64,000 bases of DNA from Nitrospirota bacterium (GTDB taxonomy: Bacteria; Nitrospirota; Nitrospiria; Nitrospirales; Nitrospiraceae): contig SCVN01000007.1 of the NCBI GenBank assembly GCA_004296885.1, forward strand, positions 62,001 through 126,000, in the 5' to 3' direction. Below the pieces are notes generated by a model that had not been told where the DNA came from, did no database searches, and saw only the letters and a program-made list of their open reading frames with translations. Both the position numbers and the translations under genes were made by a program. Positions 34,976-37,082 of this stretch are shown here, in pieces. The first letter of the stretch is position 1, and every line of letters begins with the position of its first letter.

Positions 34976-35331
34976 TGGGAACCTCCTCGCGTAAGAATCG
35001 TCCTAGGTATTGCTTCTTGAGACCTGCCCGCCCGCAGGCACCTGCCTTGCCAAAGACTGTATGGGTTTCGTAGTCCCACGCACAGTAGCACAGACCCTAT
35101 CTCTTTACGAGTGATGCAGGGGCAAAACCACCGGCTAGAATGCTTTGCATAAGGCAATCGGCCCATTGGGCTGCTTTGAATTACCCAGATGCCAAAACGT
35201 GAAGTCTAGAAAATCAACCATTTGGACGATAAAAGCGAAAAACTCAGTGCTTGTTCTAGTTGTGAATGTCCGTAAATAACACGTGTACCGTATCGCAGTA
35301 TGTTTCCGTTCATATACCATTCACTTTCTTA
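34976..35331. other. Long AT-richer intergenic region upstream of the HARE-HTH unit
   Basis: About 356 bp, clearly more AT-rich than its surroundings, between the divergent lipoprotein and HARE-HTH genes. Short open frames here (for example minus strand 34972-35320) have no ribosome-binding site and atypical composition; I see no gene. A sigma-70 promoter closes it on the right (35332-35360). Confidence 0.6.
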
Positions 35332-35360
35332 TTGACAAGTCTCTCATGCTTTGCTATAAA
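35332..35360 (+). promoter_or_regulatory. Near-consensus sigma-70 promoter with operator-like symmetry
   Basis: TTGACA (35332-35337), exactly 17 bp, then TATAAA (35355-35360). The -10 box is inside the inverted repeat TTGC-TATAAA-GCAA, with extended symmetry GCTT..AAGC, a plausible repressor site. Transcription would start near 35367, about 20 nt upstream of the GTG start at 35389, which has AAGGAG at 35375-35380. Confidence 0.82.
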
Positions 35361-35388
35361 GCAAGCATGCTCGCAAGGAGTCTTGCTT

Positions 35389-35895
35389 GTGGAAGAACTA
35401 AAAGACATTCTGGTCGGCCTTGAACAGCGCATCAATGCCTATAAGACCCGCCTGCAGGAATTGGAGAAAAAGCGGGGCCGGCTTGAGGAAGAGATCGCCA
35501 CGATCAAGAAATACCTCGAACTCGCCGAAACTCTCTATCGCGTGGAAGCCGACAAGGCCAAGCTCGCCAGCCTTTCAAGCCAAATCATCACCGACGAAAA
35601 AGGCCCTCGTCTGCTCCCGATGGATGTCACCGATCAATCGCGTGAGATCCTCTTGGGACGGAGCAAGTATGTCGCCATGAGTGTGCCCGAGGCCGTGTAT
35701 CAAATCTTACGTGAAGCGCGGCGATCGATGCATGCGAAGGAACTGGTCCAGCGGTTGATTGAAGGGGGTATGCAGATCAAGGGAAAAACACCTCTGACCT
35801 CCGTGGCAACCTCGCTCAAGCGGGACCGGCGGTTTAAGAAAGTAGGGCCCAATACGTTTGACATCCTCGAAGAAGCGTTGACGAAGGCGGTGTAA
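35389..35895 (+). CDS. Coiled-coil HARE-HTH domain protein
   Basis: A 168-residue protein. GTG at 35389 is preceded by AAGGAG with an 8-nt gap, and the promoter above would place the mRNA start only about 20 nt upstream, so longer versions are unlikely. Residues 1-65 form a charged coiled coil (RINAYKTRLQELEKKRGRLE). Residues about 98-160 are a winged helix of the HARE-HTH type: SVPEAVYQILREARRSMHAK, ELVQRLIEGGMQIKGKTP, SLKRDRRFKKVGPNTFDI. In other proteins this domain is found with chromatin factors, RNA polymerase delta, and restriction or DNA-modification enzymes, and is thought to read DNA state. It is followed by a 12-codon lysine-rich frame and a hairpin. Probably a small DNA-associated regulator; target unknown. 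Confidence 0.82.
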   Translation: MEELKDILVGLEQRINAYKTRLQELEKKRGRLEEEIATIKKYLELAETLYRVEADKAKLASLSSQIITDEKGPRLLPMDVTDQSREILLGRSKYVAMSVPEAVYQILREARRSMHAKELVQRLIEGGMQIKGKTPLTSVATSLKRDRRFKKVGPNTFDILEEALTKAV

Positions 35896-35944
35896 ACGCT
35901 TCCACCAGATTCCGCCAAGCAGTCGATGAAAGGAGGTGAGCGCT

Positions 35945-35983
35945 TTGGCAACGAAGAAGGCAGCGAAGAAGAAGAAGAAGTAA
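35945..35983 (+). CDS. Predicted 12-residue lysine-rich peptide (MATKKAAKKKKK)
   Basis: A very short frame starting TTG and ending TAA. It is preceded by AAAGGAGGTGA (35929-35939), an 11-nt perfect complement to the 3' end of 16S rRNA, with 5 nt between it and TTG. The product would be 12 residues, seven of them Lys, and resembles the basic tails of histone-H1-like proteins. It lies 49 bp downstream of the HARE-HTH stop and just before a 14-bp hairpin, so it seems to be the last cistron of that unit. Alternatively the strong ribosome-binding site could act as a ribosome stand-by or regulatory site. Expression is unproven. Confidence 0.55.
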   Translation: MATKKAAKKKKK

Positions 35984-35998
35984 CCCCTCCACGGTTAC

Positions 35999-36032
35999 GG
36001 CGCCGGGAGCAAGGCCACTTGTTCCCGGCGCC
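35999..36032 (+). terminator. Long hairpin ending the HARE-HTH unit
   Basis: GGCGCCGGGAGCAA (35999-36012), loop GGCCAC, then TTGTTCCCGGCGCC (36019-36032): a 14-bp stem with one G-U pair. The sequence after it is C/T-rich but lacks a solid U run, so it may be a terminator aided by Rho or a 3'-end stabilising hairpin. It may also serve the convergent lpxC gene. Confidence 0.72.
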
Positions 36033-36131
36033 CCTTCAGAGAGCATTCCTCTCCTCCCCTACGGAAAATTCAAACAAAGAGCTACCAGGGCCATCCCCGG
36101 TCCACTGAGCAATGCTGTAGTTGTAAGGCGG

Positions 36132-37070
36132 CTAGGCTGCGGGAGCGGCTTGCAAAGCTGCAACAGGCATGTGAGCGGGACGCGAATAGACGTGCTGCGT
36201 AGCGACCGGCACTTCCTGAGCATCGATCAGCACCCAGCTGTCCGGCTGCGACAAGATAGTTTGAACCAATTTAGTATGAAGCGCGTGCCCTGATCGGTCG
36301 GCGGTCAGATGGCCGATAACCGGAACTCCGAGCAAGGCCATGTCTCCGATCAAGTCCAGCACCTTATGTCGCACAAACTCGTCGGCGAAACGGAGGCCGG
36401 ATTCGTTCACAATGCCATCTTCCGACAACACCACCGTATTCTCCAGCGAGCCGCCTTTTGCAAGGCCTCTCGCCCAAAGCGCCTCCACTTCCTTCAGGAA
36501 CGCGAAGGTGCGCGCATCGGCGATGTCTTGCTCGAACGAGGCCACGGTGCAGTCATACTCATACGTCTGCCGCCGGATCATCGGATGATTGTATTCGACG
36601 GAACAGGTAATCCTAGGCGTTGATGCCGGAGTGATGGCAATCCGCCGCCCGCCTTCAGCAATCTCAATCGGCCGCAATATCTTCAGGTAGGGCTGTCGAC
36701 GCTCTTGCTGGGTGATGCCCGCAGAACGGATCAACTGGACAAACGCACCGGCGCTGCCATCCATTGCCGGTACTTCTCCCCCGTCCAGCTCCACATAGAT
36801 ATTGTCGATCTCGAGGCCAACTAACGCCGCCAGCAGGTGTTCGACCGTTTTGATCAAGGTCCCGTTCGCACTGAGGGCCGTGCAGAGTTCGGTGGACATC
36901 AAATTGCGGATAGAGGCCCCAAATGATACGGTACCGCCGATCTGATGGCGGATAAATAAGATGCCCGTATCGGGAGGAGCGGGACGCAACGTCAACGACA
37001 CCGGATGGCCCGTATGGAGCCCGACACCGGAGCAAGAAACCGTACGGCTAATAGTATGCTGCTGACGCAT
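36132..37070 (-). CDS. lpxC: UDP-3-O-acyl-N-acetylglucosamine deacetylase LpxC
   Basis: Zinc enzyme of the first committed step of lipid A synthesis. The 312-residue product (ATG at 37070, with GAGGA upstream) begins with TISRTVSCSGVGLHTGHPV, the family start. Zinc ligands and catalytic residues are visible: His in KTVEHLLAAL near 78, His and Asp in RHKVLDLIGDMALLG near 235-245, and the general acid His in HLTADRSGHALH near 262. Length is typical. A TTG four codons earlier is possible but less likely. It shows that the host makes lipopolysaccharide. It is divergent from the molybdopterin oxidoreductase gene. Confidence 0.96.
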   Translation of the reverse strand: MRQQHTISRTVSCSGVGLHTGHPVSLTLRPAPPDTGILFIRHQIGGTVSFGASIRNLMSTELCTALSANGTLIKTVEHLLAALVGLEIDNIYVELDGGEVPAMDGSAGAFVQLIRSAGITQQERRQPYLKILRPIEIAEGGRRIAITPASTPRITCSVEYNHPMIRRQTYEYDCTVASFEQDIADARTFAFLKEVEALWARGLAKGGSLENTVVLSEDGIVNESGLRFADEFVRHKVLDLIGDMALLGVPVIGHLTADRSGHALHTKLVQTILSQPDSWVLIDAQEVPVATQHVYSRPAHMPVAALQAAPAA

Positions 37071-37082
37071 CAGTGTCCTCAA

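Follow-up and report, generated by a model that had tools for sequence, protein, structure and literature searches.

The lysine-rich reading frame and its conservation

Is a 12-codon, lysine-rich reading frame with a strong Shine-Dalgarno sequence (SD) a gene, and what might so small a product do? The question is raised by a micro-ORF in the window, the whole 64-kb stretch of DNA analysed here, and the features of its locus are collected in Table 1. As described in the initial annotation, the micro-ORF lies after a HARE-HTH gene and before a hairpin, and direct reading of the sequence confirmed the SD, the 5-nt distance to the TTG and the 12-residue Lys-rich peptide. The 11-nt match of the SD to the anti-SD depends on the universal 16S rRNA end, which we take to apply to the window's genome; the 16S rRNA 3' end was searched for in the genomes of the comparison set, and none was found. 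Among ORFs of 9-60 aa on both strands of the window, the micro-ORF was the only one combining an SD with at least 35% Lys, and the element is single-copy in the window's genome.

Table 1. Features of the micro-ORF locus in window coordinates
Feature	Position	Strand	Details
sigma-70-type operon promoter	35332-35360	+	TTGACA 35332-35337, 17 nt, TATAAA 35355-35360
Likely operator	35359-35372	+	palindrome-like AAGCAAGCATGCTC, overlapping the -10 end and start region
HARE-HTH gene	35389-35895	+	GTG start 35389, TAA end 35895, 168 aa
SD of micro-ORF	35929-35939	+	AAAGGAGGTGA, read from sequence
SD-to-start spacer	35940-35944	+	GCGCT
Micro-ORF	35945-35983	+	TTG start 35945-35947, peptide MATKKAAKKKKK, TAA 35981-35983
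C-rich stretch	35984-35992	+	CCCCTCCAC, after the stop, complementary to SD core; role uncertain
Hairpin	35999-36013/36018-36032	+	15 bp, GCCA loop, terminator-like, no U-tract in window
lpxC	36132-37082		convergent neighbour of the micro-ORF element

Two other readings of the start were discarded. The first, a Glu-rich frame of 60 aa from the ATG at 35926, changes in translation when the Lys frame changes synonymously. A GTG within the SD falls out of frame in the 4 of 50 elements that have one extra spacer base (L010, L021, L022 and L026).

HARE protein matches were found by protein search in 150 of the 175 genomes of the window's family, and 49 HARE-HTH loci from 48 genomes (30 loci from searches and 19 picked for spread) were read together with their downstream DNA. 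The micro-ORF was present at every one of the 49, with 50 ORFs in total and two in tandem at L009. Each of the 50 begins with a TTG preceded by an SD; the ORF pattern demanded TTG, and with 0 of 49 loci failing it, no other start is hidden. Exactly MATKKAAKKKKK is encoded by 25 of the 50, and the others specify 11-21 residues of like composition. The peptide of Candidatus Nitrospira defluvii (FP929003.1; L060, the same genome as L038) is MATKKAAKKPAKKAAKKK. At L009 the SD-ORF unit is duplicated on the reverse strand, at about 2057-2290, with a hairpin behind each copy.

A covariance model (R1) built from SD, ORF and hairpin matched 157 of the 175 family genomes at E<=1e-20. The looser cut-off of E<=0.01 gives 169/175, a figure that overstates the HARE-linked locus; we used 157, which sets aside six genomes without a match and 12 with E worse than 1e-13 (G004, G005, G006, G039, G065, G092, G096, G130, G141, G145, G158 and G173). 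Every genome with a HARE match has the element except G039, where the HARE gene sits at a contig end. Seventeen family genomes, several of them incomplete, lack both a HARE match and a strong match at the HARE-linked locus, and seven of these (G065, G092, G096, G130, G141, G145 and G158) carry only the standalone paralogue described below. G004-G006 and G173, from two genera, lack HARE as well as any credible K-rich element; those of their weak matches that were read proved to be K/E-rich ends of other proteins or to hold no K-rich ORF. The element is therefore not universal in the family.

Outside the family, 52 genomes with a HARE match were counted and 36 were read, weak or redundant ones being left out. 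A K-rich ORF of 12-113 aa, Lys/Ala-rich and often containing Pro, was present behind HARE at all 36 loci (the ORF of L148 enters Ns and that of L156 leaves the contig), and by reading 28 of the 36 start with TTG. The HARE stop codon lies within the SD of the K-rich ORF at eight loci (L159, L161, L166 and L168-L172), which is the usual layout of translational coupling, and these deep members look coupled. The ORF again has 12 residues at L143 and L154, which belong to another family of the same order. The SD-ORF unit of L143 is tandemly duplicated, giving two 12-mers.

Coding signature and loss of the HARE-HTH gene

The identical 12-mer is encoded by 16 different DNA sequences. Pairwise comparison of same-length distinct ORFs gave 99, 79 and 626 differences at codon positions 1, 2 and 3, respectively (804 in total), counts that are descriptive, the related sequences not being independent. 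Length changes among family ORFs involved whole codons in every case, and at L117, where the TTG is mutated to TTA, an ATG is available two codons further. The 50 ORFs specify 18 distinct peptides with 61% Lys and 29% Ala; no peptide contains an acidic residue, and the final three residues are basic in all 50. Lysine is encoded by AAG 319 times and by AAA 53 times. Judged by its sequence, the micro-ORF is a genuine gene and not a chance frame, and we strongly infer that it is translated in vivo. The initial annotation had proposed conservation of the frame and its SD downstream of HARE-HTH genes in relatives as a check, and missing conservation of the frame as a refutation; the proposal passes, with the frame conserved at 49 of 49 family loci, an SD before each of their 50 ORFs, and the frame again at 36 of 36 phylum loci. 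A chance frame or assembly artefact, which a short ORF with a TTG start might bring to mind, is extremely improbable given this in-frame conservation.

The element is kept without any HARE match in eight genomes (G007, G009, G010, G049, G051, G052, G054 and G135) and with HARE as fragments only in two (G008 and G017). On an LpxC tree of 45 rows, five changes are required to explain these ten genomes; bootstrapping gave 5 to 5 as the range from 5% to 95%, and the starred branches force 5. The tree was built without five duplicate loci and without LpxC rows of fewer than 250 residues or with stops (L096, L087, L091, L086, L025, L097, L031, L020 and L102), and L140 sits on a long branch. We read the ten absences as losses because HARE is present across the phylum, and by this reconstruction HARE has been lost at least five separate times while the micro-ORF stayed. 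A toxin-antitoxin arrangement was dropped, the putative partner being lost while the peptide stays. At L032 (G018) and L033 (G122) the HARE match is truncated or split and the micro-ORF is intact; these are possibly further losses and were not included in the five.

We compared decay among the HARE-less lineages with one representative for each of the five losses (10 pairs). Identity in the former HARE stretch was 49%, with a shuffled baseline of 48%, and identity reached 78% in the SD stretch and 83% in the ORF. The first 70 bases past the stop were 60% identical and the bases beyond 49%. With the former HARE stretch at the random baseline and the ORF well above it, selection therefore acts on the micro-ORF itself.

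A standalone paralogue was also found. Fourteen of the 19 loci read (L118-L123, L131-L133, L184-L187 and L190) hold a K-rich ORF of 15-20 residues without HARE, starting with ATG in all, and five hold none. The paralogue has a promoter-like TTTACT...TATACC upstream, an SD, the K-rich ORF and a different hairpin with a similar loop; the stem sequence differs from that of the HARE-linked locus and the peptide composition is kept. A model built from 11 sequences matched 66 of the 175 family genomes at E<=1e-10, chiefly in two genera, and a search with this model did not find the paralogue in the window's genome.

These results bear on the earlier suggestion that the peptide assists the HARE-HTH protein. 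Such assistance may be one role, but not the sole one, with the peptide kept in the ten genomes in which HARE is eroded; a peptide that persists where HARE has gone does not depend on it. A dedicated HARE-HTH cofactor, detached from a single complex whose tail it would be, in the manner of the K-rich stretch in RNA polymerase delta, would fit the order of the operon and the coupling seen throughout the phylum, the presence of the element wherever HARE was found, one contig end apart, and delta as the top structural match. The at least five losses of HARE with the peptide kept and the standalone paralogue without HARE both argue against such a cofactor, which we consider unlikely.

RNA structure and the role of translation

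The hairpin behind the micro-ORF showed two-sided changes in 10 of the 14 modelled pairs (29 aligned sequences). A U-tract follows it in some relatives and is absent in the window and in others, and the stem is conserved. The hairpins of the HARE-linked and paralogue loci have differing stems and a common GGCCAC loop region. No Rfam family matched 35300-36200 up to E=1. The hairpin changes, together with the recurrent GCCA-type loop that is found also in the paralogue, the retention of the element after HARE loss and the conservation of SD and hairpin along with the ORF, would suit a conserved sRNA, or one derived from the 3' UTR, with the ORF as an incidental or secondary feature of it. However, such an RNA would not call for the third-position bias, the whole-codon length changes or the replacement start codon at L117, and between the two loci it is the stem sequence that differs and the peptide composition that is kept; we regard an sRNA as rather improbable.

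The CCNCC of the post-stop stretch is mostly conserved, and its pairing with the SD is possible. Occlusion of the SD by this CCNCC is a possibility that we do not claim: RNAalifold predicts the pairing, yet no two-sided changes were seen, and the paralogue is without the stretch.

The strong SD, the post-stop complement to it and the conserved hairpin could also mean that translation of the ORF matters and not its peptide. A strongly initiated, purine-rich short frame before the hairpin would then tune the mRNA 3' end, either protecting it or sensing lysine or ribosome supply via the AAG run, and AAG is indeed the preferred Lys codon. Several results count against this: the ORF is kept without any upstream gene to regulate, the downstream lpxC is convergent, no pair between the SD and the post-stop stretch changes on both sides, far longer versions exist outside the family, and the C-rich stretch is missing in the standalone paralogue. 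We give translation without a functional peptide a small chance of being correct.

The initial annotation had further suggested that the poly-Lys run stalls ribosomes and serves as a regulatory upstream-type frame, an idea that the locus does not bear out. A leader peptide controls a co-directional downstream gene, which is not what lies behind the micro-ORF at 59 of the 60 loci scanned, where lpxC is convergent; at the remaining locus the contig ends early. Stalling or attenuation is disfavoured because of this convergent arrangement and because the frame is present without any gene to control. The frames also range in length from 11 to 113 aa and differ in sequence, with their composition preserved.

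The probable cationic peptide and its relation to known systems

The HARE-HTH gene product matched PF05066 at 42.5 bits (Pfam cut-off 25.9), the sole PF05066 match in the genome. NCBIfam gave nothing above cut-off for it; when the HARE profile was run against PDB sequences, most of the matches were coiled coils and none was a winged helix. An AlphaFold2 model from 14 sequences (mean pLDDT 80.5, pTM 0.43) predicted a helix at residues 2-67, a disordered linker at 69-87 and a C-terminal winged helix (domain 97-157 of 168). RNA polymerase delta (2m4k) was the best match in the fold search (Z 8.6, rmsd 2.8 over 73 residues), and histone H1 globular domains (Z 7.6-7.7), forkhead domains and Rok also matched; Z values up to 8.6 are near the range that the tool calls common (~8 and less) and may reflect a common arrangement.

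The operon promoter is conserved across the upstream regions of relatives; a consensus scan overlooks it, requiring a final T in the second hexamer. Directly after TTGACA-17-TATAAA the sequence is AAGCAAGCATGC. Promoter plus operator motif matched at 54 of 63 HARE-positive loci, a set in which some genomes appear twice, L082 is without upstream DNA and L079-L081 lie outside the window's family. The operator motif was found at none of the nine HARE-less loci scanned, and a pattern search found promoter-like boxes persisting at six of these nine. Within its own genus the motif is confined to the HARE promoter, bar one 1-mismatch site in G002. HARE probably represses the shared promoter of its own operon through this palindrome-like motif across the start region.

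Length and order of the residues drift while the charge is kept, as is typical, on sequence grounds, of tails that work electrostatically. In Pseudomonas, the tail of AlgP is reported both to bind DNA and to be required for polyphosphate granule spacing (PMC9239181). Therefore, taking the charge-kept drift together with the AlgP report, our preferred reading is a polycation that targets nucleic acid or some other polyanion, most likely by electrostatics. The original idea that a tiny basic peptide neutralises DNA or RNA thus gains a conserved frame of translated type, and a nucleic-acid binder is plausible; a peptide of 12 residues should, however, bind weakly at physiological salt.

Directly observed are the conservation of the ORF, its coding signature, the gene order of the operon, the persistence of the ORF after the loss of HARE and its standalone paralogue. 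On this footing we lean towards a genuine micro-gene whose product is an H1-tail-like polycation, miniaturised and free-standing, that was ancestrally expressed together with the coiled-coil/winged-helix HARE-HTH protein and acts on a polyanion. Its fuller form is the Lys/Ala/Pro-rich, H1-tail-like protein encoded right behind the HARE-HTH gene across the phylum Nitrospirota, and the coupled cistrons of deep members would yield the DNA-binding winged-helix protein and its cationic tail as separate chains made together. The tail would then have shrunk to 11-21 residues in the window's family. Its targets may include nucleoid DNA, RNA, transcription complexes and perhaps polyphosphate.

A bolder version, which we hold only tentatively and think doubtful, is a split, miniaturised linker-histone-like system, in which the separate tail of a winged-helix protein shrank to 12 residues, became independent of its partner and spawned a standalone micro-gene. 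If true, it would be among the shortest conserved stand-alone bacterial protein families and would have a general nucleic-acid role in nitrite oxidisers. Selection acts here on a gene of 12 codons, a size that length cut-offs in annotation would skip, across a family central to nitrification. The series from 11 to 113 residues, with and without the partner, offers a natural test of how little of an H1-like tail suffices, and the lineages that repeatedly dropped HARE and retained the peptide serve as a natural experiment separating the two.

The window's HARE-HTH protein shares the HARE-HTH winged-helix fold with RNA polymerase delta (RpoE, Firmicutes), which has a lysine-rich stretch adjoining its HARE-HTH domain. 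In contrast to delta, its domain is C-terminal behind a long helix, the acidic tail is absent, and the Lys-rich part is encoded by a gene of its own. Rok of Bacillus, a silencer, was the best Foldseek match for the winged helix, a likeness seen at the level of fold. The layout is also like that of Rok, in which an oligomerising N-terminus is followed by a linker and a C-terminal winged helix; we know of no K-rich partner gene of Rok. A literature search found no publications on the poly-Lys micro-ORF element.

The long Nitrospirota forms are like bacterial H1-like proteins (the Pseudomonas AlgP and PhaF tails, and Hc2) in being basic and Lys/Ala/Pro-rich, with KAPAKK/AAKK repeats in variable number; length variation is reported for Chlamydia Hc2 (PMC2848022). 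The AlgP repeat tail has 154 aa and is fused to an N-terminal domain (PMC9239181). Whereas H1-like tails span tens to hundreds of residues, the peptides of the window's family have 11-21, are free-standing behind a HARE-HTH gene and start with TTG, and the window's 12-mer, also Lys/Ala-rich, lacks Pro and falls far short of known tails in length. Lys/Ala/Pro-rich H1-like proteins were already known; the 12-residue, partner-independent, family-wide polycation is a new version of them.
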